From Liolophura sinensis (Eukaryota; Mollusca; Polyplacophora; Chitonida; Chitonidae), in assembly GCF_032854445.1 (NCBI RefSeq), contig NC_088301.1, positions 4,513,703 to 4,577,702 on the forward strand: DNA of 64,000 bases, read 5' to 3'. Below are positions 2,990 to 37,700 of this stretch, piece by piece. The notes below the pieces were generated by a model. It saw only the letters and a list, made by a program, of their open reading frames with translations. It made no database searches and was not told where the DNA came from. A program made the translations under genes and the position numbers. Position 1 is the stretch's first letter. The number at the start of each line of letters is the position of its first letter.

Positions 2990-5900
2990 ATGGCATCGTA
3001 TGGGAGAGGAGAGCTAGACGGAGGGTATTCCTCCTACCAGTCAGGAGGATTCTCAGGCCAGTGTAAGATTAATGATACTGTACTTCCTTGTTATCGAAAA
3101 TGCTGTCAGAAAATTTTTCATGGGTTTATTTTTTTCTTCACTCTGTGTGTTTATGTGTACACATTAGGTAGGTGTATTATGACACAAGGGGGATTCCTGG
3201 ATATTCCATCGTTAATTCAATATGTACTTATTAAATGCTGTAAATTACTGAATTCATGACTTGGTGTTTGTGTATTTGAATCAGTGTTAAATAAAATTAA
3301 ATGTTATAGGTGGTATCTGAAAAAGTACTGCATGTATTGAGTTCAGGATTTGCACATATGTAGAGCACAATAGCGGGAGGTGGATATTACGGTAAATTAC
3401 TGAATACCTGTCTTAGTAAACCCAATCCTTACTATTCATTTTTCAGCCAGAGAAAATGAGTTTTCCCGCTTGTCACAAACTGTCAGCCAAACCATTCAAA
3501 AGATAACACAAAATGGTAAGTTCTTTTGTAAATGCTGGAATGAGTAACATTTCGTCCTAGATGTTTTCAGGCCCAAGCTGTGTTTTCTATGGTTCATTCC
3601 TGTGGAACGGCTTCCTGCACCTTCTCATCATCAGAGATTTAGAATGAATTTTCATTCATTGTGCGCACATGTGGGAATTGAAAAACAAATAGTTCATATG
3701 AACTCAGCATCATACAGTAATTGAATGTGTCTGAATGACACAGTTTTAATTCATGTAAAAATGCCATGACTAGTAATTTTATCAAATATTATTCTTTATG
3801 GCGAGAGATTGATTATGGAGTGAAATGCCAATTTGACACTGAATTGACTGTGTTTTATTGTTGTATCTTAGTCTCCCAGCTGCAGAGGATGGTGGGACAG
3901 ATCGGTACCACGGCAGATTCGGACCAGTTTAGGGAAAGAATGTAGGTGAACATTAAAATATCCTGATTATAAGTCAGCGATAGGAATTTGTTGTTTTCAA
4001 GATCTGCTCCATGATATGCCTAAGTTCTATTGATGAAAAGGTTCAGATGTCCTCAGTAAATAGTCCTACACGTTTCAGCTGTTGCCTATTGCATCAAGAG
4101 ATAGGAAAGGTCTGGTTACACCACAAAGCCAATTTCCGAGTTACCCAAAAGTTTACTTGATATATTTGATTGGTGTTCTACGTCGTACTCAAGAATATTT
4201 CATTGTACAGCGGCGGTCATCATTATGGTGGGATGGAACCTGGCAGAGCCCAGGGGAAAACTAAAACCATCCGCAGGTTGCTTGAAGAACTTCCCGATTA
4301 TGGCCAGAGAGGAAGCCAGCATGTTACCAGAAAGTGAAAGTGTAACTGAAGCAGTGTGGACAGACCAGAGAGATAGAGGGTTTAGAGGCGCATTGTTACT
4401 ACAACAAAGTGATATTACTCAATAGTGTTGTGATGTCTTCAGTTTTTGGCAGAGCAGACATCAGGTAGACTCAGCCCATGAAATTTGACATGTATATACA
4501 ACCTTAGCAGTTACCTAAACCAATTAATGGTCTAAGACTTTGTTCTCCAGTGGTACTGTGTGTTACTAACATATAAAAGCTCTGACATCAGTATGATTTT
4601 TTATACATGTGCCATCGTACATGTGTATTAGAGGTACACTTAAGTAGCCTTTTTGTGTGAAATATTCTTGAGTATTTATAAAACTTCAATGGAAGAAATA
4701 ACTAGGGCTATGCTCTCATAAAATAACCATGAAAACCATGTATTGTAACGTAGGTGAACAAAACTCATTTACATGCAGATGTAAGACAAAATGAAGCCTG
4801 AAGGTATGTCTTCGTGTTTTCTTTCTCCAGGCACCAGACAACCCACTACACAAACCAGTTAGCAAAGGACGCCAACAGAGATCTGAAGGAACTGATGCAC
4901 CTGCCTAACCCACCCAACTCCTCAGAACAGGTGAGTGCGGGGCTCAGGGGAAAAGGCCACGGGTCAAGGGACTTAGTCAGATCTATGCTGCGTCTTTTGT
5001 GGACAGTCGCAGACTTCAGGATTGGTGATGAGGGATGTTGTAGACTGTAATCAGTTGTCACCATCATATTTGCTGGGTCTAAAAGAGATGATCATTTGTC
5101 TATATTTCTTGAGCAAATTCTGTACATATGAATATATGTAGGTATTTCTTCTGTGTCTAATTGAAAGATATACATGTATATAGGGGCCCTCTGTGCCCTT
5201 GTGTTTTATACTGTGCTCAAGAATGTTTCATCTCATATGACAGTGGCCAGTATTATGGTGGGAGGGGAAGATAGGCAGACCCGAGGAAGTCCCACGACAA
5301 AGCATTATTCTTCTGTACAGCTTGAAACTCCAATCAAATCAAATATAAATTGAAAGAAATAAAGACCTGCTTTGAAGTGGTCTTTGTAAAAGTGGAAGAA
5401 TGTGTAGTGTTCTTATAAGATCTTATAAGTGTGCAGATTTGGTAGACCACCACTACGGTATCAGTGCCTGTAACAGTAGACTGATTAAGGTAGGCTTGTG
5501 ATTACCTACATTTCTCTTCCTTTATTTATACTGCGTTTTATAGTTTTTGTATCAACATCTCTTTGGTTTTCAGAGGCAGAGAAAAATGCTGAAGGAGAGG
5601 CTAACAGATGAATTTAGCAATGCTCTGAAGAACTTTCAAACAGTACAGAGAACTGCAGCAGAGAAAGAGAAAGCCAGCATCTCCCGAGCCAGAGCAAACT
5701 CCGGCTTAAATAAGGTCAGTAGTGAGTTCAAGTCCAGAGTTTGTTAGGTTTTCATTTGATGATCATCTTAATATGCCAGATAGCAGGTTAGAGTGAACAT
5801 GAAACATGCTGGTCTTATTGCACATGAAACATGCTGGTCTTATTGCACATGAAACATGCTGGTCTTATTACACATGAAACATGCTGGTCTTATTGCACAC

Positions 5901-8900
5901 GAAACATGCTGGTCTTATTGCACATGAAACATGCTGGTCTTATTGCACATGAAACATGCTGGACTTGTTACACATGAAACATTCTGGTCTTATTACACAT
6001 AAAACATGCTGGTCTTATTACACATGAAACATGCTGGTCTTATTGCACACGAAACATGCTGGTCTTATTGCACATGAAACATGCTTATCTTATTGCACAT
6101 GAAACATGCTGTTCTTATTGCACATGAAACATGCTGGACTTGTTACACATGAAACATTCTGGTCTTATTACACATGAAACATGCTGGTCTTATTGCACAT
6201 GAAACATGCTGGTCTTATTGCACATGAAACATGCTGGTCTTATTGCACATGAAACATGCTGTCTTATTGCACATGAAACATGCTGGTCTTATTGCACATG
6301 AAACATGCTGGTCTTGTTACACATGAAACATGCTTATCTTATTGCACATGAAACATGCTGGACTTGTTACACATGAAACATTCTGGTCTTATTACACATG
6401 AAACACGCTGGTCTTATTGCACATGAAACATGCTGGTCTTATTACACGTGAAACATGCTGGTCTTATTGAACATGAAACATGCTGGTCTTATTGCACATG
6501 AAACATGCTGGTCTTATTTACACATGAAACATGCTGGTCTTATTGCACATGAAACATGCTGGTTTTATTACACATGAAACATTCTGGTCTTATTGCACAT
6601 GAAACTTTGTGACATCTGTGATGACACTAACTCTAGCATACTTTTAAGTTAAAAGGTAAGAAAAATACACAAGCAAAAAACTAGAACTGAGAGGACTTCT
6701 GGGTTGTCTCGATGGTCTGTAATGTATCATACATGTAGGCATAAATTATCGTAATCTGCATCTGTTTGACTGCAATATGAATACTAATGGGTTCTCACAT
6801 CTGTAATCAGGCCCTTCAGAAGAATGTGTAGTGTTGTTTTCCTCATAGCTAGGCTTGTTTCTTACACAAGGTAACTTGACCACATTTACAGAATTAATAA
6901 TAATAAGCTTATACAAGCTAATATAACATAACAACAGTGAAATAAACAATTCCTTTGTAGATGGGACATGGTGTAATGTTAAATTTAAGGAAAACAGTAC
7001 TTGAAATTCCTAAGTATGGTATAAAGCACCAGTCAAGGTCTGAAATTCATTTACAGCTCGCAAACCATGGCCAGGCTTCATTCAAGCATTTATTTACTTT
7101 GTTACATATTACAGCTCTACTAATAAAAGACAAAGATTTTTCTTTGCTTCACTAATTTACTTTTTCTTCACAAAGTAAATTCTTTGTAAATGTGATATGG
7201 AATCCCCTATCAAGTCAGTCAAAACATTTGAACACGTCTACAGATTTATGCATTAATAGCATATCTTTAATGTTACAATCTTTATGTGTCAGTCCTCATT
7301 CGTCTTTAATTTTGCAATCTTCATGTGAAAGTCCTCATTCATCTTTAATGTTACAATCTTCATGTGGCAGCCCTCATTTGTCTTAAATGTTACATTCTTT
7401 ATGTTTCGTCCCCCATTTAGCTTTGATGTTTTAATCTTTACTTGTCAGTCTCCATTACATGTTGTAATCATGTGTCATTCCCCATTTGGCTTACATGTTG
7501 TAATCATATCTCTGTCCCCATTTGGCTTACATGTTGTAATAATATATCAGTTCTTACATGGTATAATCATGTGTCAGTCCCCATTTGGCTTACATGCTGT
7601 AATAATATCTCTGTCCCCCTTTTGGCTTACATGTTGTAATAATATCTCTGTCCCCATTTGTCTAACATGCTGTAATAATATCTCTGTCCCCATTTGGCTT
7701 ACATGTTGTAATAATATCTCTGTCCCCATTTGTCTAACATGCTGTAATAATATCTCTGTCCCCATTTGGCTTACACGTTGTAATAATGTATCAGTTCTTA
7801 CATGGTATAATCATGTGTCAGTCCCCATTTGGCTTACATGCTGTAATAATATCTCTGTCCCCCTTTTGGCTTACATGTTGTAATAATATCTCTGTCCCCA
7901 TTTGTCTAACATGCTGTAATAATATCTCTGTCCCCATTTGGCTTACATGTTGTAATAATGTATCAGTTCTTACATGGTATAATCATGTGTCAGTCCCCAT
8001 TTGGCTTACATGCTGTAATAATATCTCTGTCCCCCTTTTGGCTTACATGTTGTAATAATATCTCTGTCCCCATTTGTCTAACATGCTGTAATAATATCTC
8101 TGTCCCCATTTGGCTTACATGTTGTAATCATGTGTCAGTCCCCACTGGCTTTGACGTTATAATCTTGATATTTCAGTCCCCATTTGGATTTGATGATGAT
8201 GAGCGGAAGAGTGATGACCAGCTTGTTGGGTAAGTAAAATTTTGTCCACTTCTGATGGAAACCATGGAAGGTGTGAAAAAGAATCCACCAATCTAAGTAA
8301 GAGATATTAAATGCCCCATGGCAGGCCAGTGAATGGAATGTCAGGATAACTAGCCACAAAATTCTCTGATTTTCTGAAATTTAAAGAAGGTATTTAAGTA
8401 AAGCCTTTTGTACAGATCTCTAAGCAATGTGAAAAGATGGTGAAGTCAGGACTTTTAGATGTAATTATATTTTCATGAATGCATTAAAGGTGAAGAAAAC
8501 ATGAAAATTATTTAAATTGTAGAATAAAGACTTTGAAAAGTTAATTATAAATATGAATTTCAATATATTTTAAAATTTTTCTTTAATGAGGAAAAGGACA
8601 TTTGAAAATAATTTTTGTATGGTGGGTATTTGGGACCAGGGGGTTAACCAGAATTATGAAAGAGGCTTTCCAAACATCTTTTTTAGAAACCATTTTCTTG
8701 TAACAGAGTGTCCAGATTTCATTTTCTACTGTCTCTCCCATGTTAAGAGTGCTGAAAACAGGGTGTCCAAATGGCATCAGTTTTCTGCACGTAGTCACTT
8801 TCTGTGAAATTATCCCTCATGAACTGCCTTAAGATCAGTCTAATGGTAAGTTTTAATAGACTTTAGACACTCAAAATAATGAGTGTAAATAATATAGAAA

Positions 8901-11900
8901 TCTTTTCGAACATCATATAAGTGAAATGTTCTTGAGTACACCATAAGACACCATCAAATAAATAAATAAATGTATCTACAGAGGTGGGGTTGGGTGCTGG
9001 GTACAAGTATGCCTCACGAAGCAGTGTACGAATGCCACTGTTCATATCCCTTTCTCTTTGTTTTTGGGCAGGTATGTGCTCATCACATACTTTGCAAAAG
9101 ACCAGGAGTGTGATTTGCAAGCTTAAATTAATTCTCTTCAGACTTTTGACTTTGTGAGGAATGTCTTACTAACACACGTAGACTTTGTTCCAGGAGTACA
9201 TTAGTTGTGGAGGTGTGATAGCACGCCTTAAATTTGGCAAAGACATTGGCATATTTTCTCTGGGCTGCTACAATACTTGTTGTCTCATATTTTCTTTTGG
9301 GCTTTTGCAATAAATCTGCCCCTTTTCAGGATGTATTTTCCAAATATTGAATGGATCGGTTGTCATTGAGCAGGTATTCCCAGACCAAACAGGTGTTACA
9401 GATGGAAGAGGATGTGGACTTAGAACTGATCAGAGAGAGAGAAGATGCCATCAAAAAGCTAGAGGTCAGGCTAACATCTCTTCTAGTAGAATTTTCACTA
9501 CGTCATGTGGCAGCACCGTTGATGGATAGGGACTTTGTGGATTTCCTTGACTTTCAGCCTCGTTATTTATTAATATAGTAAATGTTTGTTTGTTGAGGAC
9601 CAGTTGTCCTCCACCAATTATATGAATTATGTGTGTGTACCTGTGTGTCACAACTAAGAAAGTTTGTCAGTAACTTGCCAAAGCTTGATGGTTTTCCCTC
9701 AAGGTTGCCCTGTTTCCACTATGCTCATAAAACTGATAGTCTTCAGACATTTGAAGAATTCTTGAGTATGGTGTTCAACAACGTTCAGATAAATAAAAAA
9801 TTAATATCTTAGGAAATTAATATCCTAAAACTAGGTTGAGTTTACACTCACATTGTATAGATGTTGTGTAGACTGCTCTCTTGTCTAACATACTATAATT
9901 CCGGTTAGAAGGTGAATTTGTAGCCATTTTTCTCCTCTTTGTAGAGTGATATCATGGATGTGAACACAATATTTAAAGACCTTGGCATGCTGGTCCACGA
10001 ACAAGGGGAGGTAATAGGTAAGTATCTAGTTTTTGTTTAACCATTCACATGAACAGAGTAAACTTTCAGTCGCAAGTAAATATGTTTGTGTCTGCTAAAT
10101 TGATGTTAAATATTATGACATGAACTTTTCTAGAGTTTACAAGTAGAATCTATTTAAATTTGAAGATGTTTTATCCAAGGGAGTTAAATGTGTTGTTCCA
10201 AGACTGTTTTGATGTGGGGAAAGAGATTAACATGTTCTAATTGCAGACAGCATTGAAGCTAATGTAGAACAGACTCAGATATCAGTCCAGCAAGGTACCA
10301 GTCAGCTGCAAAAAGCTAAAGAATATCAGGTTGGTTTTTCCTCCAAGAAGGGGAGACAACTGCTCGTACTCTAATGGCTTAATACTCTGCAGCTTGTCTA
10401 CCAAACTCACCTATGTTGGGATTTCCTGTTTACACAGGCAGGTATTTGTATTGCTGTGCTCTGCCATCTCCGTTGGGGTCAGTCTTATTCCACTCTGTGT
10501 TTCTGTTCTGCTTTTGAAAATTAATGGTAACTTTAACAAAAATACTTAATAAATACAAAACATTCCCTAATTCCTCAACCTTTTCACATATGAAACAGCA
10601 ACTTTCGGTGCAATTTATGCACATTTGTAATTTGATTTTGGAGACAAAAGTATATTGATTGGATTTGCCAGTTTCAAGACTTGAGAATATGCCTGAATAA
10701 ACACTTTGCAAACATGCATAGATGGTTGAAGGATTACAGTACTAATGAAATTGCTGGTACTTTCATCGGTTTTTAAGCATTTCCTATTTACCAGTATCAT
10801 GTATTGAGTTGTTGGCAGTAAGGTCAACACTACAGTTCTAATTCTTGAGCTTTTCTGGAACTTTGTGATTTTTATCTTTTCTTCTTCAAATAAGTGAAAC
10901 ACAGAGTACATTTGGTGTGGCCATGGGTATATCCTTTCTGGTCCTAGGCCGTCTGCATGCTGCTGGTACAACCATTCCAACTGTAGGGATCATGTTACCA
11001 TGCTTACTGCACACTCATCGGGGTGTACTTTGTAACACTGTGACCTGAGCTTTACTATCTGAACATGGTGGAAGGCTAACACCAGCTAACAATAACAGGG
11101 GGGAGAGAGTAAAACAATAAAAAAAAACAATTAAAAATGAAACTCTTTATCATTAAAAGCCAAAATAAGTTGAGTTTGCTAAATAAAATTGTTACCATTA
11201 ACCAGTCTGCCAGTATTACATTTTACAATACTGTTTTTCTGAGTTTGGCATTTTTCAAATGACCAATTTTTGCTTGATTTTAATTGCTGCACCCATCTTA
11301 TAGGGCCACTTAAGTTTTGAAGTTTTTTTTTTTTTTTTTAGAATTTTGATAAGTTGCTTATCAGCCCTTAGCTAAATAGCACTGAGGTAGATAGTGCTTA
11401 CTAATAGATGGATAGCGCTTATATACATTCTTGATGTTTGAACACTGGCCTGACAGCATTTTCACATAGGAGTCAGACATTATTGTTATTTCTGTAAGGA
11501 ACTGCAGCTTGACAAAACTAAACCCATGAAAATAACTTTTGTTGTTGAAATCAATCAGAGTGGAGTCTAAGGCATTTTGCCATAATGGAAGATGGTGACT
11601 CTCCAGGTGATGGCAGAGCAAGCAGAAGTTACCTGGTCTTTCCCCCCGTCCTACAACCCATTACCCCCCCATATCACCCCCTTTTCCCCTTTTATCACCC
11701 CCTTCCCCTGTTTATTCCCATATTTCCCTACACATGCATCAACCATAAAGAGGTTTACATAGGCCTCCTCCATGTAACCCTTGCTCATAACTCGCCTGCA
11801 CTTGGCCCTATCCTTGTAGACAGCATAGAAGCTAACGTGGAGAGTGCTCACCTCAGTGTACAGGAAGGAACACAACAGTTGTCATCAGCTCGACAGTACC

Positions 11901-14900
11901 AGGTAATCACTGTCTGTCTGTCTGTTCCCAGGTTCATACCCACCTTGTGATAGTTTGTGTTATCGTCGTATTTATTGACAGCTTGCACAACAAACTTGAC
12001 ATTGAACCATCCATTTTAGGATTTTAATTTGTGCTTCTTCACTCTACATCCACAAAGCATCATTTTTAAATAGTACAGAAAAGGGATTTTTACAATTAAA
12101 CAACAGTTGAGACTTGTTACATTAAGATAACCTTTAGTCTAAGATATCCTAGGGCAGAGAATGAACCACTGTTGCAGACAGTAGATGGTAATAATTTTAA
12201 CAACATTTGAAGTAGAGTGAGCCTTACACACATAGATTAACATCACCTTATTGAAATGATACATGTCAGCTTGGCACATTTGTTGTACGGAAGCAAGAAT
12301 CGTGAGATGTTTCCTTGGATTTAAACTTATATTGAAGATTATGTCAATGTAGGAAAGTGATCCATAAATGTAACTCAAAAGTTTTCAATTTTTGGTGTGT
12401 ATTTTATGTCTCACAATTACCCCTCCATTTTGTGCATATTTTCCATTAATGGCGTGAAATTTTCAGAAATGAAGTCAGTGATGAATTTTCCCAGCTAAGC
12501 CCCACACAGCTGTTTAGTCAGCTTTCACTGTTGACGTCCCAACTACAGGATACTTACTTCATATTATTAGGAGGATTGTAGTTTAAAGTCCCCCCCCACC
12601 CCACCCTCCTTCGCCAAAGAACATGTCTTTTTTGTAGACCTACCTTTATATGTCAGGATAAGCACTAAGTTTGTATCAAAAAAAAAAAGTAGTATACATT
12701 TCATGTAACCTGTAAACCATATTTCAGTGAAAGAGATTTCTGATGGTCTTGCTTGAAGCCCATTGTTCCTGTTAAGACTTTTTGGGTTGGATGATGTGGA
12801 GTGGTTTGTTCAATGGTGTTCTTGTTTGGTGCGGTATGGCTTATGTTCATACTTCACATACACTTTGATTGCATTTTTGATACACAGCTTTTGATTGGAT
12901 CATATGGCATGATTTGTCACCTAACACTGGTTTTGATTGGATGATATGGTGTGGTTTGTCACCTGACACTGGTTTTTATTGGATGATAAGGTGTGGTTTG
13001 TCACCTAGCACTGGTTTTGATTGGAAGATACCATGTGTTTTGTCAAATAATGGAACACTCTTGTTCCTTGTGATGTTTGGAGAAAGAAATTTGAACATAC
13101 AGTTTATGACCTTTTGCCCTCAGATTTGATAAGTGTATCCCATGATTCATTGCGCTGATTGTTGTTCTTCTTGACTGGGTGCCATGGGAGGGCATCAGGG
13201 GTGGTCTGGGATTACATTGACAGTTCACAGATGTAATAAACAAGCTCACACTTCACTGAGCAGTCTATGCACCTACCACCAACAGTGGCTAATCACACTC
13301 TTCCGTCATCTTGCCACCAAATGTGACCAGACGAAAGTAAACGACAGTCGTGCATGGACCAAAGTTTACCTGTACAACATTTACTGGACATTGTATTTCT
13401 GCCATCTAGGTTAAAACAAAAGTAAACCAGCATTGAACTGTCACAGTACCCTATTTCTTTTACTGGCCCCAATAGCTCAGTTGGCAGAGTGTTCGCTTCA
13501 GGGGCGTTACATCCAGGATCAATCCGGGCCACACATGACCTTTAACTTGCTTAATTGTCCTCATTGAGTCGTCTCAGTGAAGCAGCACTAGATGAAAGAG
13601 TGGTGGAAATCTGCCCTGCTATAAGGCGCATTACATGCGCTCTAAGGACCACCTCATTGTCATATGACTGAAAAATTGTTAAGTTTGACGTTAAACTCCA
13701 AACACTCACTCACCCTATTTCCTTGACCTTTTCGCATATGAAAGAGGAATTTTCATGGCAAATTTTGCACATTTTTATTTTGATTTTGGAACTACAATTT
13801 TATAGGTCTGCACAGAAGAATACCTTTAGAATATGTTTGAATAGACATCTGAAAACATATGTGAAGCCCTTGCTTCACAAAATGCTACAAATCTAAAACT
13901 GTGAGTTGGCCACAGAGGACAGTTATTCGTGTTGAGGCACTTGTGAGCTGGTTTAGCTAAGGGTCATTGTCCTTGAGGCACTCTTTTGACAAAAGAGAAA
14001 AATGTAAAATGATACAGCCTGATTTCAAATTCTGACTAAATCTATGATTGCCAGTTTCATTTTGTCTTGTTTCGTTTCTTCAAGCAGATTTGTGTTTGGA
14101 GGATAACAAGTTACACATAATAGCCTTTTTACAGTCTGTCTTTTCCAGATGATCGATTCTAACATTTCTTGGTGATCAAAACCAGCATTGTTTCACAATC
14201 TATCATTTCCAGATTATAAAAACTAGCATAATAACACAATCTATCATTTCCAGTTGATCAAAACTAGCCTTGTTACACAATCTGTCGTTTCTTGGTGATC
14301 AAAACTAGCCTTGTTACACAATCTGTCGTTTCTTGGTTATCAAAACTAGCCTTGTTACATAATTTCACTATCATTGACCTTAAAACCTTAACAGACAAAC
14401 TATCTCTCATTTCCAAGAAGAATTATCTGGTAAAGTTAGCTTGGTCAAACAAACCATCATAGTCTAGACAATATAAATTATGCCATACAAGCTACCATTT
14501 GTGGTGATGTACAGTGCACGACCTTCTCCATGCATGTCCTGTACACATGTCTTGCATATCTTTACTTGCAGCTTGACGCAGCCTCTAACTGCATGCTTTT
14601 GCTGTTGTACTTTCTATTACAGTACACTGTATAATCAGTTACAACTGTTGTCAGTGACTTGCCAAGTTTATTCATAAATTGTACAAATGTTTAAGAAAGT
14701 CAGAGAAAAGACTTATTTCAGAAGCTGATGGATGTAAATAAAAGTCCATGAATCTTACATAAAAAGTATATATTTATTACAATTTTTGCAATTTGCATCC
14801 GTGAGTTATATTGCATGCATTTAGTTCTGTTGACTGAGCACATTAATGCACAGTTTTTGTATATCATTCTACATTTAACCTGTAACAAATGTATTTTCTG

Positions 14901-17728
14901 TCATGGTATAGACACCTGATTGTTTTATACACGTACTTTTACATTATGTTTTGTTTTTAGGTTTTTGTGGAGATTATGAGTTGTTTTAGTTCCTGTGGAG
15001 TTTGACATCATTGGTATTTTGTTGTTGTTGGTTTATTACAGTCCAAGGCACGCCGGAAGAAATGCTGCATTCTCATTATCGTCGTTGTTGTGCTTATCGT
15101 TATTGGAATTATCATAGCGATTGCAGTTCCAAAATCATGTACGTGGGCTTCTGTTTATTTATTTTGTTTTCCCCCAATCCCTGCACAAAATAAAGTGTAT
15201 TCTGTAACCCGAGGAGTAGAAGAATCTTACCATGACCAAAGACTGCAGTTTTAAGCTTGATAAACTGTGACTCACAGTGTTGTAGAGTGGGCAGTAAAGT
15301 CAGCAGGCTAGCCTTAGGGTTACAAGATTGACATTCCTTCTTCATGCAAAAGTGCTCAATGTAACATCAAACATATCCTTGTTGGCTGTGCAGACTTTCA
15401 TCATGTTGGGCAAAGATACGACACAGTCGACTCTATATTCCATTTATTTGACAGCAATGCTGGCAAGTAGGTGGAGCATCCGCTTTGGGAGCAGTAGGTC
15501 AATCCTGGGTCGAGTCCCACCTAAGACCTTAAAAAGAGGAAGTTGTAACTTCCTCACTTGGCGTTCAGGGGATAGTGCAATGACTGGTTTACCTCTATCA
15601 GTATAATGGCTTGGGCGGGGCAACTTACTTGCCTTTGGTAAGGCGTCTCAGTGAAGCAGCACTAGATAAAAGAGCAGTGGAAATCCGTCCTGGAACAAGG
15701 AGGCACATTACCCGTACATGCACCCTAATGATTCCTTCGTCGTCATATGACTGAAAAATTGTTTTGTACGACGCTAAACCCCAAGCACTCACTCACTCAT
15801 GCCATGCTGGCGATGCTGTCGTTAAATATTTAAAGACTATAGATCTATATAATAAAATATAGTTTTGTTGATATATACAGATAAATTCTCTATACATGTG
15901 ATTTTCTAGGTGATATGTTATGAAAATGTTACGTTTTGGGGGGTTTTAACTCAGGTTTGGTTCCTTTTAACTTGGTTTAAACATGTTCGTCTGTTTTTGT
16001 TTTATATTTGGTGTTTTCATTGTATTGAAAACCATTCACTGGCTCCTGTTTTAAACTTTTGCTGGTCACAATATGGCTGAAAAATTTCTGCTGTGGTGTT
16101 AAGCCATAATCAATCATTCATTCATTCATTCTTCATGCAAAAGCAGAACTGAATTATTATCTTCCAAAACCTTTATGCACAGGAAAAGCTGTTCAAAATT
16201 TGTTTTGGTAACACAAGTAAGAATATTTTGAAACTTAATTCATATCATAGTTTAAAAGAATAATGCAAGAGTGTGACTTTTTTAGTGCATGTTGCAACTG
16301 TTCTGACCTAATTCGTAGCTGATATATTGCTTCAAATGTATTACTATGGATAAAGGTAGGGGACTTCACTTGCAGAATCAAAATCAACAAAAAGTATCAG
16401 TTGACTTCAGTTTTGAATTCTTGTTGCCTGAGTATAAAAGGAAATGTCACAGAGCCATGTTACTTAAGTGCTCAGCAATTGACCAGGTGAGATCGTTTTC
16501 TCAGTCAAAAAGCTAAATGCAGATGATGTACATTTAGCTTAGGGGTGAAGCAGGTCATGTGACCAGTCATATGACCCCTTACATGGCTTATCAGAGGAAA
16601 TATGGCAGACTTGGATGATGTTGTAGAGTGGAGTGTACTCCTAATTTTATTGTTAAAACAGCAACATCATCGTTTACACAATTCTTATCGAAGAAAATGA
16701 GTGAATCCGCTGATAGATCAGTCATTTTGGACGCAATTTTGAACAAACCATGGGGAAAAGTCACATGATTTATTTGCGCATTTCCATTGGTCTGTGTATG
16801 TGGCTGAGCTGGGGGTTTATGTTCCTCGCACACGGTGAGGTTTTTCTCTCGCCTGCCTGAAAATATCAAACAGGCCAGAAACTGGACTCCCTGTCTTGCA
16901 AATCAAAACCTCACTAAACCTGCGCGCACACAATGAAGGTTTAGTTACTCGTGGTCACTAGCTGAGCATTTGGCTTTCGTCTGCATCAGTCTTTATGTAA
17001 TGATTGTGACAGTAAAGGTAATGTGAGGAGCATAGGTTTAGCCAGGGGGGTAACTCAGTGTGTGTGAGACATCCTATTCTGACAAAATTACATGGGAGGG
17101 ATAGGGCAAATAGGAGAAAATTGGAACTGAGACGGCCTACTTTCATATTTTGGCTATATTTATGTTAAGAAGTTGTGTGAACTGCTTTTTTTTTTTTTGA
17201 CTTATCATTGATTACTGTTTGTATTTTCTACAAGAATCTTAGTTGGAACCTGTCATTGTTTTTGGAGTACTGTTTGATGATGTTTATGATTTTGATTAAA
17301 AATAAGGTTTGTCAGTTTTACTTTGAAATGAATGACATGGTGGAAAGTAAGAAGAGAAAGTAAATGCTTGTATAACAGATGTATAATGCATTAGATATCA
17401 AAACAATATATTGGTGCCTGTAATTCAGCCATTCAAGGCAAGTTTTTGTAATGTATTTTGTATTCTTGTTTTGAGCCTTTTGTTACTCATAAATTGAATG
17501 ACTTAATTTGCAGACAGAAATTTTCTTTCGAAATTGTAGCATGTGCAAGGCAAGCCATACTTACATCGTTAATGTATGTTACATTCTTATTTAAATAGAA
17601 CTATAACTCTCTATTCCTTTTTCCTTTCACAGAAAAAATCCCGAAGAAGGCTGTGCATCATAATCACAATTGTAGTCATTATTGTTGCTGTAATTGCTAT
17701 CATTATCTGGCCTCAAGCTAAGCAGTGA
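2990..17728 (+). CDS. STX12: Syntaxin 7/12-like endosomal Qa-SNARE, ten exon positions, two of them duplicated
   Basis: Coding exons: 2990-3062, 3447-3515, 3872-3941, 4831-4930, 5574-5714, 8177-8229, 9374-9464, 9945-10017, then 10247-10329 or 11820-11902, then 15042-15138 or 17633-17728. All phases match and the product is 282 or 283 aa; human STX12 and STX7 are, from memory, 276 and 261 aa. Residues about 26-151 form the Habc bundle ([38 protein letters not shown]). Residues about 152-185 are an acidic linker. The SNARE helix runs from about 186 to 250 with the central zero-layer Gln at 219 ([10 protein letters not shown]). A basic juxtamembrane stretch and one C-terminal membrane helix follow. 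[14 protein letters not shown] and the KKSRRR before the anchor favour STX12 over STX7, but an invertebrate 7/12 ancestor is equally possible. Known role of the family: membrane fusion in early and late endosomes. The ATG at 2990 opens the conserved frame. Confidence 0.92.
4160..4322 (-). mobile_element. 5'-truncated tRNA-type SINE in syntaxin intron 3
   Basis: On the plus strand it reads GATTGGTGTTCTACGTCGTACTCAAGAATATTTC..., the reverse complement of the SINE tail and body seen complete at 40970-41236. It stops at GAGGAAGCCAGCATG, before the tRNA-like head. Confidence 0.7.
5796..6605. repeat. 25-bp tandem repeat, about 32 copies, syntaxin intron 5
   Basis: Units built on CACATGAAACATGCTGG plus TCTTATTG, with variants (TTACTT, GGACTTG, ATTCTGG) that recur in blocks, suggesting amplification of several-unit segments. 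Confidence 0.92.
7255..8176. repeat. About 35-bp minisatellite with 172-bp higher-order period, running into syntaxin exon 6
   Basis: Units contain CCCCATTTGGCTTACATG and GTAATAATATCTCTGT. A compound block starting TATCAGTTCTTACATGG recurs at about 7787 and 7959 (172 bp apart) and in longer form at about 7546. The left part (7255-7440) is more diverged. The array ends directly at the exon 6 acceptor, TTTCAG followed by TCCCCATTTGG, which resembles the repeat unit itself. Confidence 0.9.
8920..8975 (+). mobile_element. SINE tail fragment, first family
   Basis: ATAAGTGAAATGTTCTTGAG and CATCAAATAAATAAATAAAT match the end of the complete SINE; nothing else of it remains. Confidence 0.55.
10247..10329 (+). 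CDS. Syntaxin alternative exon 9a (C-terminal half of SNARE helix)
   Basis: This 83-nt exon starts in phase 1 after acceptor TTGCAG and ends in phase 0 before GTTGGT, a rather weak donor. It codes residues 225-251, beginning [13 protein letters not shown] and ending KAKEYQ. Its twin lies 1490 bp downstream with the same length and phase. Fitted to the syntaxin heptad register, this copy has Thr at layer +4 (residue 233). The other core layers encoded by the two copies are the same, so the differences are mostly on the surface. Confidence 0.85.
11820..11902 (+). CDS. Syntaxin alternative exon 9b (C-terminal half of SNARE helix)
   Basis: This 83-nt exon follows acceptor CCTTGTAG and ends at donor GTAATC. 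It codes residues 225-251, beginning [13 protein letters not shown] and ending SARQYQ, closer to vertebrate STX12 (EANVES) and STX7 (QQLS) than copy 9a is. Layer +4 is Ala. Joining 9a to 9b puts 9b out of frame and reads ACA GCA TAG within three codons, so only one copy can be used per transcript. Skipping both copies also shifts the frame. Confidence 0.85.
12889..13045. repeat. 42-bp tandem repeat, about 4 copies, syntaxin intron 9b-10a
   Basis: TTTTGATTGGATGATATGG followed by GTCACCTGACACTGG recurs at 12889, 12931, 12973 and about 13014. Confidence 0.75.
13458..13711 (+). mobile_element. Complete tRNA-derived SINE, second family, with 10-bp target duplication
   Basis: The head CCCCAATAGCTCAGTTGGCA resembles a tRNA A box, and a B-box-like GGATCAATCC follows. 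The tail reads GACTGAAAAATTGTTAAG then GACGTTAAACTCC and ends CACTCACTC. ACCCTATTTC flanks both sides (13448-13457 and 13712-13721). Confidence 0.75.
14140..14360. repeat. About 40-bp degenerate tandem repeat
   Basis: GATCAAAACTAGCCTTGTTA followed by CACAATCTGTCGTTTC recurs about five times with substitutions, in the syntaxin intron before exon 10a. Confidence 0.65.
15042..15138 (+). CDS. Syntaxin alternative membrane-anchor exon 10a
   Basis: The exon starts in phase 0 after GTTTATTACAG. It codes SKARRKKCC, then about 21 hydrophobic residues and AVPKS, and ends with one extra T before donor GTACGT. SKARRKK resembles the juxtamembrane stretch of plasma-membrane syntaxin 1, and the double Cys is a possible palmitoylation site (inference). 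Spliced to 17633 the leftover T joins AA to give TAA, so the protein ends PKS and exon 10b becomes 3' UTR. If the donor is ignored, the frame instead runs on to a TAA at 15252-15254, passing an AATAAA at 15189. Confidence 0.8.
15465..15803 (+). mobile_element. tRNA-derived SINE, second family, with short target duplication
   Basis: It shares the tail of the 13.5-kb copy (GACTGAAAAATTGTTTTG, GACGCTAAACCCCAAGCACT, CTCACTCACT) and the GTCTCAGTGAAGCAGCACTA block. ATGCTGGC flanks it at 15457-15464 and 15804-15811. The head holds a B-box-like GGGTCGAGTCCC. Confidence 0.65.
16060..16135 (+). mobile_element. Fragment of SINE tail, second family
   Basis: ATGGCTGAAAAATTTCTG and GGTGTTAAGCCATAATCAAT followed by CATTCATTCATTC match the tail of the SINE family seen complete at 13.5 and 15.5 kb. 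Confidence 0.5.
17633..17728 (+). CDS. Syntaxin alternative membrane-anchor exon 10b with stop
   Basis: The exon starts in phase 0 after TTTCCTTTCACAG. It codes [11 protein letters not shown], a hydrophobic helix ending IIIWPQAKQ, then TGA at 17726-17728. KKSRRR and LCIII match the anchors of vertebrate STX12 and STX7, so this looks like the ancestral last exon. It is used when 10a is skipped. The 3' UTR follows. Confidence 0.85.
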   Translation, partial: KKSRRRLCIIITIVVIIVAVIAIIIWPQAKQ

Positions 17729-17822
17729 CCTCCAGAGGCTCCTCCCACTGACCTTTGGAGACTCCTCCCAATGACCTTTGGAGACACCTCCCACTGACCT
17801 CTGGAGACACCTCCCACTGACC
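17726..17822 (+). repeat. 23-bp tandem repeat starting at the syntaxin stop codon
   Basis: TGA occurs at 17726, 17749, 17772, 17795 and 17818, each 23 bp apart, within units of the type TGACCTTTGGAGAC followed by CCTCCCA. Because 23 is not a multiple of three, the repeated TGAs fall in all three frames within 92 nt. Confidence 0.85.
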
Positions 17823-19480
17823 TCCAGATGTATTCACCAAACTCTTGCGATGGTGGTGCACATCTGCTCTTCACTTTCCAGATAAATGAAACTGAAGTGA
17901 AACATGCAACCAAGAAACGCAAGACACAACGGACATTGTCAAAATGATGATTGCAAAACTGAAAGTGATGCCCATGACAAATATAAGAGAGGGACACAAT
18001 CCAGTGTATTGTACATAAAAACATAACATGAATTATGTATAGATGTATAGGTCTATATTTGGTAGAGCTACCCTCACCGGAAAACAAACAGAAAAAAAAA
18101 AGAAAAGAAAAACATGAACTGTAATCTACAAAATTACATCTGTCAGAATCTGATTTTGGTACGGGTATGTTTAGTAACATACTTTTTGTTGTTGCTTTTT
18201 TCTTGTGTTTAATGATTTGAACAAAAAAAAAAAGGATACGGTACATTTGATGCTGCCCTTGATCACATACAGTGCTGTCATGATCATATGGCACATCCAG
18301 TAGTGGGTTTGTGGACTTCTGACATTATAAAGTTACAGGCTATAAGTGTTTGGACCAAAACAAAAACAGTATGGATATTAGCTCTGTATGTTTATTTGTA
18401 GAAAACTGGAATTACAACACGAAATATTTGTGATAAAAGAGTGTGTAAAGTGTCCGATGTGAGCGGGTGTTATCTTTCTAATGATGGACAGCTGATCTTT
18501 TGAACTAATGCCCACTTCTGTTTCTAACCTTCTGCTGGGATATTGCGTCAAGAATTAACAGATGCCATCTGGTGGTGATCTTATTGAAGAAATTAGGTCA
18601 TGGAAAACAGAATTTGCTTTATATAAAAGATATTTTATGGATAAACAAAGAAATTCCTTGCCCTGGCATGTGACGATTTTCATGCATTGAATTGGAACAC
18701 AGTGTTATTATTCACTTGGTTTCACTTCATATATTGTAGGGCTGCTACTAAATATGACAAATTACAAATTCTGTGAAATGTGCATTTAAGATTTGGTCAG
18801 ATTATAATGATATATGTAAAGGAAAATGTTATCGATATCAGTATACATGAATCATAATGACTTCCACAGCTATTGTGAAAATATACCCTTGAGATGTATC
18901 TTTAAGGAAATCATATGTTCTGAAGCAGTAAATGTCCACCAGCTTGCTAATGATTGACTACGTTTTATTCTTGCAGATTTTTACCTCAGTTTTAGAGTAC
19001 TTTATATAAGAGAGGGTCTGTACACAATTTTGTGCCTAGCTTGATAAGTTTTGTAAATATTGTCCTTAGTACTGGTACCCAGAATGACCATTATCACATT
19101 CAGATATCAATATCAAATTTTGTATATACTGGAACTTATATCTATTATTTTGTCATATTTTAATTTGCAATGTTTTATTATTGACACTGGAGATACCTTC
19201 AACCTGTACATGTATTTATTCTATTGTTTTCGTCTTTGTATGTTTTAGTAGGCTTATGCATACATCTACGCAATCCATTGTGGTATTGTATTTGGTGGTT
19301 TGAAATGCTGTTTCCATCAGTCTTAGTGACACTGAGGTAAGACATCTCTCGGCAAGGAACCTACCAAAGGGGAAAGGGCAAAAAGAAAAGGTTATTTTAC
19401 ATGATAGCTTCCTGTGGCTATTATGTGGGCATTTGTGTGGGCCATCTCATAACTCTGTGTATTAAAATAATCTTCAACTT
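17729..19480 (+). other. Syntaxin 3' UTR (end uncertain)
   Basis: This AT-rich stretch after the 10b stop has no further coding similarity. No canonical AATAAA was found; ATTAAA at 19461 is a possible polyadenylation signal. A 23-bp repeat opens the UTR and includes the stop codon. Confidence 0.3.
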
Positions 19481-23530: not shown

Positions 23531-26500
23531 TCACAAACTCGGCTGTGAGACTGGTTCAACTTGTACGACGTTGTCGTTGTCAAAGCCTTCTCCAGTTTCC
23601 GCCGATCCCTTAGCCGCTAACGCCGCTGCTAGTTTTCGCTGACGCACTCGTTCCGCGTGCTCTGCCTTCTTTCGCATTTTCTCTTGAACTTCTTGCAACC
23701 GTTTTTCTCGTTTGTCTGTGACTTGGTCCATTTTTTGATGCACTTGACTTTCCAGCATCTCTTTCTTAGCCTGAGGACCCTCTGCCGCAGTCATATTCTC
23801 ATGTTTGCTCTCCCATTCACGAATCTTCTCCAGTTTGGATTGTTCCCGTTCCTGTTTCACATGCAGAAAATAAGACATAATCATGATTCAGAAACTGTGT
23901 AAAGGATGCTTTACAATACTGGTCAAGCATCTATACCTTACATTAAACCAATCATAATATTACTCTATACAGTCGTAGCTGCATGAACACCGAACCGGTG
24001 ATGATCGGCTGAATGGGGTGATAAAAGAATAAATACTCCATGGTAGTTTACGACCTAACGTCAGGCGTTGAAGGTTTTCACTCAAGGAAGTTTGAAAACA
24101 AGGAAAAGAATGCCTATGCTGTAACTTGCAGTACAAGCAAACTGCAATATATGAGTGCTCACTCCAGTTTGTCCCAACGCCACAAACCATCTCAATACAG
24201 TTTGGTGTATTTTCCATTCGAATATATTATGGCTTGTGGCCTTCTGATAGTACAAACTATATAGCGTGAATTTGGCTTCATGAGTAGCAAAACTGACGCT
24301 GATTGGCTATTGTACGGGTTAATATGCCACTAAAGAAGCTAGTTATGTTTTCACTATGTATACTTGTTATACATCTCAACCAATTTATGTGAAATCTTGA
24401 GAAAATACACACACCATATATTTGGGGATATTAATTACATACTGTTGCCTGAAAATAGATACTTTTAATTTGAATCATTATTTTTGAATAATGGAAATTT
24501 GCCTAAACCTTCGAAACTCATTATAATTCTGAGGATGGCAAAAACAAATGCCGAAATAATGAGTCACAATGAACTCTTCGTAGTGTATAACGTAAAGGTT
24601 TTCAGCGTTATCACAAGATTTTGAACACATACATATATGTGTCGGTAAAATCTAACTGTTTTTCCTACCTTTCTCCTTCGTTCCGCTCTCTCCAGTTTCT
24701 CTTTGATCTGTTCTTCTGTCAACACCTTCTTCTTCTTCTTCCTCTTCTCTAACTTGGCTAGACGTGCCGGGGGTCTTCGAGTGGCGTCTTCCGGTTTGTC
24801 CATGACCACTTCAAAACTGAGACCCCCGGCGGCCGATGACTTGGGTAGTGATATCAAGCCTTCCTCCCTCAAAGCTTGAATAATGACCAGCTCCTCGTGT
24901 CGCTTAGCTCGGGCACTTTGACGTCTGGGGCAGGCGACACCAACCACGCTCAGCTCTGTGAGTTAAAAAGAGGTGAATAGTTAGGTGATTGTTTAGCTGA
25001 TGGTTTGGCCGTTGATTGTTTGGTTGATTTTTAGTAGAATTTTCGGTTGGGGCAAGTATGAGGAGCCACATTGTAATTGTAAAGGGATGGTGGACAACCA
25101 GGTTAATGTATATGGGTATCTGGGTGTAGGTGCAATTCTTAATTCCAGTTCAATTTGTCTTGATTCATTTAGCACGCGAAGCCGTCTTTGGGATGTCAGT
25201 GCTTGCACGAATAAAGGTCGTGGTGGGAGAAAAGTTGGAGGGGGGGGGGGCGCAGTATGTTAACTCTAATCGCCGAGTTAAGTTATTCGCCTCTTATCCC
25301 AACAAGAGGACTGTACTGAATAACTGAATAACTGAATATCTGATTGCCCCCACACCCAACCCCCGCAAACTGAGGTCAGATTAAATGCCATATAAAAAAG
25401 GGAAACCGTGCATGACTTTGACAAATTATTTGTCACTGTATAAGGCCATTTGCCTTAAATCCAGTCAACATTTACTTCATGGTTGAGAGACGAAACGGAC
25501 CCACAGTTGGTATTAATGGTTAGTTAATCTCTTAATCCGTCTACCCCGCGGGTCCCCGCCGTGTCCTCAAGGGGGCTTAGTGGACAACGCAGCTATATTG
25601 CATATATACACCCATACACTAATATCCGTAAGTCTTATCACTATAACAGCGCAAATAATCCCGAAAACAGGTTTACATGGTAAACACATTTTCCATGTAG
25701 ACCCATTCCCATATAAGACGTTTTTTATATTTATATTACAAGAATAAACAGAAAATACTTTATGGGCATATGTTACACTTCAGCAAACATTTCTTCATCA
25801 AAGTTGGATCACAATGTGCTTCTTAATCGCTTCCGGTTTCAACATAACACGCAGGTCTTGTATTTGTTAATTACATTAATTTGTACATATAAAGGGCATG
25901 TTGATGGCTTGCGAATGTGGCAAAATAGCACTGATAATTGCAGCGAAAATCAATACTAGTATATATTCATCTGTAAATATTCATGAATATATTCTCTTCT
26001 GAGCTGCATTGTCTGCACATGGACCTATCTATCATATCCTACCCTAGCTACACATAGCGATCCGAGACCCGATGGGCTTCTTCGTTGTAAAGTACTGCAC
26101 AGGTGAATGTGTGTCGGAGGTATGTAGGCTACGCTCACATATATGCTTGCTTGACAGATATGCCCCTCAATTTAAGCAATATAAATTTACATTAACAGAA
26201 TTATACTGGGTATAAAACTGATTTGGTTTCTAGTGTTTGAATAACTCCTCTGCATATCACATGGTGTGCCGCGGTTCCTCTTGCTTTCAATACCTTGGAA
26301 TGATCCTCAATGTTTCTTACAACCGTTATTTCCTCACAAGTTCAGATATGATTAGATTCTGCTTAAACGTACGCTTGAATAATGGAATAATCATTTCGAA
26401 GTATCGTTTCCCTGAAAAGTTGCCAATTTTGTCCTTACCTAAATCTCTTTCTTGGAAGCTGTTCTCTACTTCTCTGACGGCATCAGGGTGGGAGTTCTCC

Positions 26501-34700: not shown

Positions 34701-37700
34701 ATTTAACAAGAATTATCATGCTGAGAAAATGTAAGGCGGAGTGTATAATTAACAACAGCATGATCAGGGTGGGACAATCCACAATGGCCCCCAAAATGAA
34801 GAGAAATCTACACAACAAAAGTTTTCCCAAACCAAAGTTCATAAGAGTTTTCATTTGACAGGGTGCTCACCAGTTGGGAAAGGTCTCCATCGTTGTTGCC
34901 AAGGGTAACAAAACCTCCATCCACAAAACCCCGAACATCGTCCAAGGCTGAAATAGTAACAGTTAATATCTTGAATATTTTATATGAAGAAGTACAGGTA
35001 GACATCCTTTGACTCCATCATCCTAGACTGTAACCCAACTGACACAACCCACTAACTCATAAACTTGTGTATTTTATATGAAGAAGTACAGGTAAACATC
35101 CTTTCACTGCATCATCCTAGACTGTAACCCAACTGACACAACCCACTAACTCATAAACTTGTGTATTTTATATGAAGAAGTACAGGTAGACATCCTTTCA
35201 CTGCATCATCCCAGACTGTAACCCAACTGACACAACCCACTACCTCATAAACTTGTGTATTTTATATGAAGAAGTACAGGTAGACATCCTTTCACTGCAT
35301 CATTCTAGACTGTAACCCAACTGACACAACCAACTAACTCATAAACTTGTGTATTTTATATGAAGAAGTACAGGTAGATATCCTTTGACTCCATCATCCT
35401 AGACTGTAACCCAACTGAAACAACCCACTAACTCATAAACTTGTGTATTTTATATGAAGAAGTACAGGTAGACATCCTTTCACTGCATCATCCCAGACTG
35501 TAACCCAACTGACACAACCCACTAACTCATAAACTTGTGTATTTTATATGAAGAAGTACACGTAGACATCCTTTCACTGCATCATCCTAGACTGTAACCC
35601 AACTGACACAACCAACTAACTCATAAACTTGTGTATTTTATATGAAGAAGTACAGGTAGACATCCTTTCACTGCATCATCCTAGACTGTAACCCAACTGA
35701 CACAACCAACTAACTCATAAACTTGTGTATTTTATATGAAGAAGTACAGGTAAACATCCTTTCACTGCATCATCCTAGACTGTAACCCAACTGACACAAC
35801 CAACTAACTCATAAACTTGTGTATTTTATATGAAGAAGTACAGGTAGACATCCTTTCACTGCATCATCCTAGACTGTAACCCAACTGACACAACCAACTA
35901 ACTCATAAACTTGTGTATTTTATATGAAGAAGTACAGGTAGACATCCTTTGACTCCATCATCCTAGACTGTAACCCAACTGAAACAATCCACTAACTCAT
36001 AAACTTGTGTATTTTATATGAAGAAGTACAGGTAGACATCCTTTCACTGCATCATCCTAGACTGTAACCCAACTGACACAACCAACTAACTCATAAACTT
36101 GTGTATTTTATATGAAGAAGTACAGGTAGACATCCTTTCACTGCATCATCCTAGACTGTAACCCAACTGACACAACCAACTAACTCATAAACTTGTGTAT
36201 TTTATATGAAGAAGTACAGGTAGACATCCTTTCACTGCATCATCCTAGACTGTAACCCAACTGACACAACCCACTAACTCATAAACTTGTGTATTTTATA
36301 TGAAGAAGTACAGGTAGACATCCTTTCACTGCATCATCCTAGACTGTAACCCAACTGACACAACCAACTAACTCATAAACTTGTGTATTTTATATGAAGA
36401 AGTACAGGTAGACATCCTTTCACTGCATCATCCTAGACTGTAACCCAACTGACACAACCCACTAACTCATAAACTTGTGTATTTTATATGAAGAAGTACA
36501 GGTAGACATCCTTTGACTCCATCATCCTAGACTGTAACCCAACTGACACAACCCACTAACTCATAAACTTGTGTATTTTATATGAAGAAGTACAGGTAGA
36601 CATCCTTTCACTGCATCATCCTAGACTGTAACCCAACTGACACAACCCACTAACTCATAAACTTGTGTATTTTATATGAAGAAGTACAGGTAGACATCCT
36701 TTGACTCCATCATCCTAGACTGTAACCCAACTGACACAACCCACTAACTCATAAACTTGTGTATTTTATATGAAGAAGTACAGGTAGACATCCTTTCACT
36801 GCATCATCCTAGACTGTAACCCAACTGACACAACCCACTAACTCATAAACTTGTGTATTTTATATGAAGAAGTACAGGTAGACATCCTTTCACTGCATCA
36901 TCCTAGACTGTAACCCAACTGACACAACCCACTAACTCATAAACTTGTGTATTTTATATGAAGAAGTTGTTACGACCCAACTTTAAACAAGGTTTATCAG
37001 TCACAATAGGATTAACCATTAATTTGTCACCAGCAAGATCATTACCAAGTAGTAGATGAATTCCTTTAAAAGGCAAAGTAGGCCTAATGCCGACAGTAAC
37101 AGGACCCAAAATAATATCTGATGACAAGTAAGCTTTGTGAAGAGGCACAGATTCAAATTCAGCAGAGCTTACACCTCTAATTAATACATTTGATCCAGAA
37201 TATGACTCATCAGAAAATGGCAAAACATCTTGTAACAATAAAGACTGAGAAGCTCCAGTATCTCTTAATACCCTGATCTTTGTATCACAAGACATGTCAC
37301 TTTTAAGTGAGACTTTACCGTATTTATTCAAAAATAAATGGCTCAAAAACCTTCATAACATTATCCTGTGAATTCTGTGTACAATCTACTGGTGGAGTCT
37401 TAACATAATCAAATGCATCAACATTGTTCACTATGTAAGACTTTTTAGCAGTAACACACAAACCAGTAGGCTTGGGGCCACCCTCCTGTTCTTGCCTTCT
37501 CTTTAAAGCATAACAATTTGACATGACATGGCTTGGCTTCCTACAATAATTACATGTAACCCTGCTAAACTGTCTATCAGTAAATGTATGGTCAGACCTT
37601 CGTTGAGTAGTGTTCGAATTAACAGGGCTTCTTTGCTCACCTGATTTGTCAAAATTTTGAGTCTGTTTCAGTGGGCCTGAATTTGAGTTAAATGAACCGC

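Follow-up and report, generated by a model that had tools for sequence, protein, structure and literature searches.

A 64-kb stretch of the genome of the mollusc Liolophura sinensis (NC_088301.1, 4,513,703-4,577,702, forward strand; hereafter the window, which represents one genome) probably carries a syntaxin gene of the STX7/12 class whose 3' end contains two splice switches. One switch would choose between twin exons for the C-terminal half of the SNARE motif (9a and 9b) and the other between two membrane anchor exons (10a and 10b). Exons 1-8 joined to 9a or 9b and to the anchor exons encode a syntaxin of 282 or 283 residues without internal stops, and four full-length forms of 282-283 residues are possible (9a or 9b with 10a or 10b). 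An earlier reading made from the letters of the window, here called the sequence-only reading, had described 9a and 9b; the anchor pair is absent from it, and with that pair the locus appears to be a two-switch gene.

Results

Exon 9a (10247..10329) and exon 9b (11820..11902), both on the plus strand and both coding for the C-terminal half of the SNARE motif, are each 83 nt long, run from phase 1 to phase 0, and are bordered by AG and GT. They lie 1490 nt apart and share the start DSIEANVE; 52 of their 83 bases and 18 of their 28 residues are identical. Joined to each other, 9a and 9b read into a TAG at 11826-11828, in the third codon of 9b and 74 nt upstream of the next junction. A stop 74 nt before a junction fits the usual rule for nonsense-mediated decay. 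Skipping of both exons shifts the frame and moves the stop into the last exon, with products of 265 residues (with 10a) or 252 residues. Because its stop falls in the last exon, this doubly skipped RNA is not obviously destroyed, and its product may be a soluble, truncated form that persists. Across SNARE layers +2 to +8 the sole difference between 9a and 9b is at layer +4, which is Thr233 in 9a and Ala233 in 9b. Syntaxin 13 carries Ser at layer +4, so that Thr there is a mild change. Layer +6 is Gly in both exons and Ala in the aligned syntaxins 7, 13 and 1A. Recomputation bore out the sequence-only reading on all of these points: the coordinates, lengths, spacing, phase, splice borders and common start of the two exons, the TAG met when both are included, the frameshift when both are skipped, and core layers that are the same except for +4. 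Adjacent, homologous, equal in length and phase, and frame-breaking when both included or both skipped, 9a and 9b have the makeup of a tandem exon pair.

Chance resemblance and neutral retention were assessed for this pair. On both strands of the window, 68 open, phase-matched stretches of 83 nt between AG and GT were found (30 plus, 38 minus); of these, only 9a and 9b themselves match either exon at more than 6 of 28 residues. An ungapped scan of the 64 kb found no third copy of the exons 9 or 10 and no copy on the opposite strand. Between 9a and 9b the proportion of differing synonymous sites (pS) is 0.76 over 17 sites, which is saturated, and the nonsynonymous divergence (dN) is 0.33. When 9a was allowed to drift neutrally to the same nucleotide identity, the frame stayed open in 31% of runs and a mean of 10.0 residues remained identical; at least 18 identical residues were reached in 0 of 20000 runs, a wide margin under a model with one branch, uniform change and a single exon pair in one genome. 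A dN of 0.33 at saturated synonymous divergence, together with this simulation, points to purifying selection on both copies. The flanking introns (200-400 nt on each side, compared with the best of 60 shuffles) gave alignment scores of 15 upstream of the two exons against a shuffle maximum of 20, and of 26 downstream against 34; the introns before 10a and 10b scored 29 against 31. All four isoforms exceed the Pfam SNARE cut-off of 26.8 bits (9a-10a, 74.3; 9b-10a, 69.9; 9a-10b, 64.5; 9b-10b, 60.2), and neither copy of exon 9 therefore looks degraded, 9a fitting the general SNARE profile slightly better than 9b. As judged from sequence, 9a and 9b are apparently an old pair with both members under selection. 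A 91-nt repeat (10565-10655 and 13713-13803) was considered as a trace of the exon duplication and was rejected, as its offsets to 9a and 9b differ; a sequence resembling it by eye, in reverse sense near 230-300, also counts against such a trace. Doubling of exons 9 and 10 as one block was likewise rejected, since the order 9a-9b-10a-10b points to two separate duplications.

The anchor exons lie downstream on the same strand and both start in phase 0. Exon 10a (15042..15138, 97 nt) codes for a juxtamembrane SKARRKKCC and a 22-residue hydrophobic stretch, ending in VPKS, and its final base is a lone T. Exon 10b (coding part 17633..17728) codes for KKSRRRLC and a 20-residue hydrophobic stretch, ends in WPQAKQ and has its own TGA. 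The final T of 10a and the initial AA of 10b form a TAA across the 10a/10b junction. Because this junction-made stop ends the protein, 10a can act as a plain cassette, and when it is skipped 10b is read. The stop sits at the last junction, so decay of the 10a form is not expected. The gene has twin exons for both the SNARE C-terminal half and the anchor, as in STX3; what the two anchor exons have in common is mainly place and phase. Two copies of a dispersed short element, about 80% alike, lie in the introns flanking 10a (13550-13713 and 15624-15796) and by eye read like a tRNA-derived short element. A 23-bp tandem repeat (17723-17837) starts about the 10b stop codon and extends into the 3' untranslated region.

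The remaining exons, all on the plus strand, were assigned with borders placed by hand to preserve the frame and AG/GT. Exon 1 of this STX7/12-like syntaxin begins at the ATG of an open frame (2990..3062, donor GTAAGA) and is followed by exons 2 (3447..3515), 3 (3872..3941), 4 (4831..4930), 5 (5574..5714), 6 (8177..8229), 7 (9374..9464) and 8 (9945..10017). Exon 8 codes for the N-terminal half of the SNARE motif, in which Gln219 forms the zero layer. Residues 33-159, the N-terminal domain, span several exons and match Pfam Syntaxin_2 (PF14523) with 126 bits, versus 29 bits for PF00804; among PDB entries this domain is closest to the N-terminal domain of syntaxin 12 (109.9 bits). In a comparison with solved structures only, the SNARE part matches syntaxins 7 and 13 best. 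Over the four isoforms, chains 1gl2_B and 2nps_B scored 76.9-83.8 bits and the best syntaxin 1A chain (2m8r) 52.6-66.3 bits. Closeness of the SNARE motif to syntaxins 7 and 13 and a zero-layer Gln are features of the class. The match to PF14523 and the best matches among solved structures, to syntaxins 12, 7 and 13, thus support assignment to the STX7/12 class of endosomal Qa syntaxins, in which the class is read from sequence and the endosomal location is predicted. There is a hint that 9a is STX13-like and 9b STX7-like, the bit scores differing by 3.2-3.5 each way; alignment position 239 points in the opposite direction. Exon 7 has a GAG-CAG tandem acceptor (9368-9373), and use of the upstream AG would insert one Arg (VGRYSQ versus VGYSQ). 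Intron 5 contains a 25-bp minisatellite of 32 copies (5797-6605) and a 36-bp array (7455-8151).

Splice signals were inspected as possible means of control. Donors were scored with a splice-site matrix, which gave 2.7 for 9a, 3.2 for 9b and 1.7 for 10a, against a median of 3.7 for the gene's 11 donors. The donors of exons 1 and 3 are scored even lower; those of 9a and 9b lie in the 95th-99th percentile of all GT sites in the window. With weaker donors at exons 1 and 3 and an ordinary acceptor at 9a, splice-site strength does not single out 9a or 9b. A tract rich in C and pyrimidines lies in the intron upstream of 9b (11629..11735, plus strand; 85-190 nt from the exon) and is a candidate regulatory element. 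No other 100 nt of the window contain as much C as those from 11632 (49% C), and CCCC occurs 13 times in the 300 nt before 9b, versus 0.83 expected at the window's mean rate. The motif scan used consensus strings in seven stretches of 229-300 nt near the exons. It gave smaller excesses of TGTTGT before 10a (2 versus 0.21), inside its TTG-rich acceptor, and of YGCY after 9a (5 versus 2.4), with one TGCATG at 14812 before 10a and one CTCTCT before 10b. Pairing between introns was examined as an exclusion device in ten pairs drawn from five 200-nt segments, which cover a minor part of the two long introns. Not one of the ten fell below the lowest of its 25 shuffles, and a docking/selector device is unsupported by these segments. 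Our preferred guess is control by proteins that bind C-rich tracts, combined with decay of the double product.

Discussion

Functional alternative splicing of 9a and 9b is probable on the sequence evidence, and their mutually exclusive use is partly supported and accounts best for the anatomy and for the outcome of the selection test. The sequence-only reading had concluded that exactly one of the two exons must be chosen. To that extent its conclusion stands, but it was incomplete in overlooking the second pair. Several observations weigh against a gene with two such switches. The predicted exclusivity of 9a and 9b follows from the reading frame, as seen in the genomic sequence of one species. 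Of the familiar devices for enforcing it, the 1490-nt spacing speaks against steric exclusion and the GT-AG borders of both exons against a U2/U12 device; the ten intron pairs gave z values of -1.7 to 2.1. With 62% pyrimidine and 18 nt without an AG, the acceptor of 9a compares well enough with the acceptors of exons 6, 7 and 8 that it gives no indication of special regulation. The likeness of 10a to 10b amounts to 13 of 31 residues and was matched by 425 of 20000 composition-keeping shuffles, so that the case for these two as twins is a modest one, drawn mainly from place, phase and domain.

If the two-switch arrangement is correct, the anatomy suggests how it would work. Exactly one of 9a and 9b would supply the late-zippering half, SNARE layers +2 to +8, and messages with both would meet an early stop and be removed by decay. 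Inclusion of 10a would give the KARRKK-CC anchor and the stop across the 10a/10b junction, and without 10a the message would be read into 10b for both anchor (KKSRRR-LC) and stop, one 3' untranslated region being common to both forms. Up to four proteins could result, in which the N-terminal domain and zero layer would be constant and the surface of the late half, layer +4 and the anchor would vary. The swap of 9a for 9b would be expected to leave basic pairing largely as it is and to affect late zippering and contacts at the surface, possibly only a little. The most likely consequence is that the first switch would tune late zippering and contact with regulators, and the second membrane sorting, by cell type, as has been proposed for syntaxins 3A and 3B (PMC11476516; cited papers are drawn on in extract throughout). 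The SM template model has aligned N-terminal halves and splayed C-terminal halves (PMC6320071). In the vacuolar Qa SNARE, completion of zippering has been weakened by means of small side chains at layers +4 to +8 (PMC8143792). The choice at exon 10 would change the juxtamembrane stretch; in syntaxin 3B a single charge-reversing difference in the polybasic sequence there has a strong effect on release (PMC11476516). Against syntaxin 1A (2m8r), 10a gains 8.8 bits over 10b and 9a gains 4.9 over 9b.

The closest known case is vertebrate STX3, so that the kind of arrangement is already known and the present gene would be a new instance of it in an endosomal syntaxin class. Syntaxins 3A and 3B have exons 1-8 in common and differ through exons 9-10 in the C-terminal SNARE half and the anchor, the same two parts that would be swapped here, and syntaxin 3C differs from 3B in one exon (PMC11476516). 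The sequence-only reading knew of no swapped SNARE half in the 7/12 class. The novelty is less than this suggests, as a swapped SNARE half is known from syntaxin 3 in that source and a twin exon of a SNARE protein from SNAP25; the STX7/12 class was not among the literature matches listed. STX3 acts in exocytosis, whereas the gene described here belongs to the STX7/12 class, and a junction-made stop with 10b common to both forms was not found described for STX3 in the extracts.

SNAP25, a Qbc SNARE, has no transmembrane anchor and so differs from the present gene in lacking a second, anchor switch. Its exons 5a and 5b are tandem, mutually exclusive twins that differ at 9 of 39 residues (PMC2581893), a likeness to 9a and 9b, which differ at 10 of 28. 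Anchors are swapped by splicing in C. elegans unc-64 (exons 8a/8b) and in mammalian syntaxin 2, and the choice in unc-64 is controlled in neurons by UNC-75/CELF (PMC4946901). Only the anchor changes in those genes as extracted, whereas here the SNARE half would change too. Twins of the STX7/12 class and a junction-made stop were absent from the matches listed in the open-access literature, a search that left subscription papers and genome annotations outside it; isoforms of this kind may well be present in automatic mollusc genome annotations. Two papers on human exon twins (PMC9741552 and PMC5740500) name no syntaxin in their main text by term look-up. Among viral and prokaryote contigs, scanned for stray animal DNA, 12 and 125 pattern matches, respectively, included no confirmed relative.

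Four other explanations were weighed. The two choices might be coupled, leaving two main forms, for instance 9a-10a and 9b-10b, comparable to STX3A and STX3B; this is the most serious of the four, with a chance of roughly one in three in our estimate. Against the syntaxin 1A chain 2m8r, 9a-10a scores highest (66.3 bits) and 9b-10b lowest (52.6), as coupling would have it. The intermediate scores (9b-10a, 61.4; 9a-10b, 57.5) show, however, that the effects of the exons 9 and 10 simply add, with no sign of coupling, and syntaxin 13 is matched best by 9a-10b (83.8 bits). STX3C and 3B differ in one exon, so mixing does occur in STX3 (PMC11476516). It is unlikely, to about the same degree as the relic or poison exon considered below, that 10a serves instead of 10b as a last exon in its own right, with a separate 3' end, as the alternative unc-64 exons 8a/8b (PMC4946901) may do. 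An AATAAA at 15189 would suit this, yet it precedes the first in-frame stop (TAA, 15252), and a message cut there would have no stop; at the end of the anchor, moreover, lies a donor, GTACGT, and splicing from it to 10b creates a TAA at once. Read-through to 15252 would add 38 residues, which is not a usual short syntaxin tail.

It is also improbable that either 9a or 9b is no more than a relic or a minor exon, retained by chance or serving only as a poison exon, whose joining to its twin lowers syntaxin through decay. The position of the double-inclusion stop, 74 nt before a junction, and donors that in both exons fall below the gene's median are what such an exon would show. Yet with synonymous sites saturated, both copies have retained an open frame, the residues of the layers and identity at 18 of 28 positions, an outcome seen in 0 of 20000 neutral runs, and a poison exon would need no SNARE-like sequence. 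An assembly error, or collapse of alleles or paralogues that placed a second copy here, is very improbable: the evidence does come from one assembly window, but the compared intron stretches are unrelated, synonymous sites are saturated, and the order 9a-9b-10a-10b is unlike the result of a single block duplication.

The two-switch reading, if transcripts agree with it, would mean that an endosomal syntaxin swaps its fusion-driving half and its anchor while keeping the N-terminal domain constant, a natural experiment on late SNARE layers and anchors in endosomal fusion, and that duplication of the same two exons answered one need in two old syntaxin classes. A bolder proposal, which we put forward tentatively and hold to be doubtful, is that a module of late SNARE half and anchor was made switchable independently in exocytic STX3 and endosomal STX7/12, two classes that parted long ago, here with a 10a form of plasma-membrane type. 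Exon 10a carries KARRKK, the polybasic juxtamembrane sequence of syntaxin 1, plus a double cysteine. If this proposal is true, one endosomal syntaxin gene could additionally encode a form of plasma-membrane type, one use of which might be secretion from lysosome-like granules, and splicing would do work that other animals assign to separate syntaxin genes.

Other features of the window

Two further loci lie on the minus strand. A stathmin-family gene is indicated by a Pfam Stathmin match of 30.8 bits in 24567-24962, and 23531-23887 is stathmin-like by eye, without a Pfam match. A 419-residue open frame at 37327-38583 has a SCAN-domain match of 34.2 bits and probably represents a gag-type retroelement; the adjoining frame (36957-37352) is protease-like by eye, without a Pfam match.

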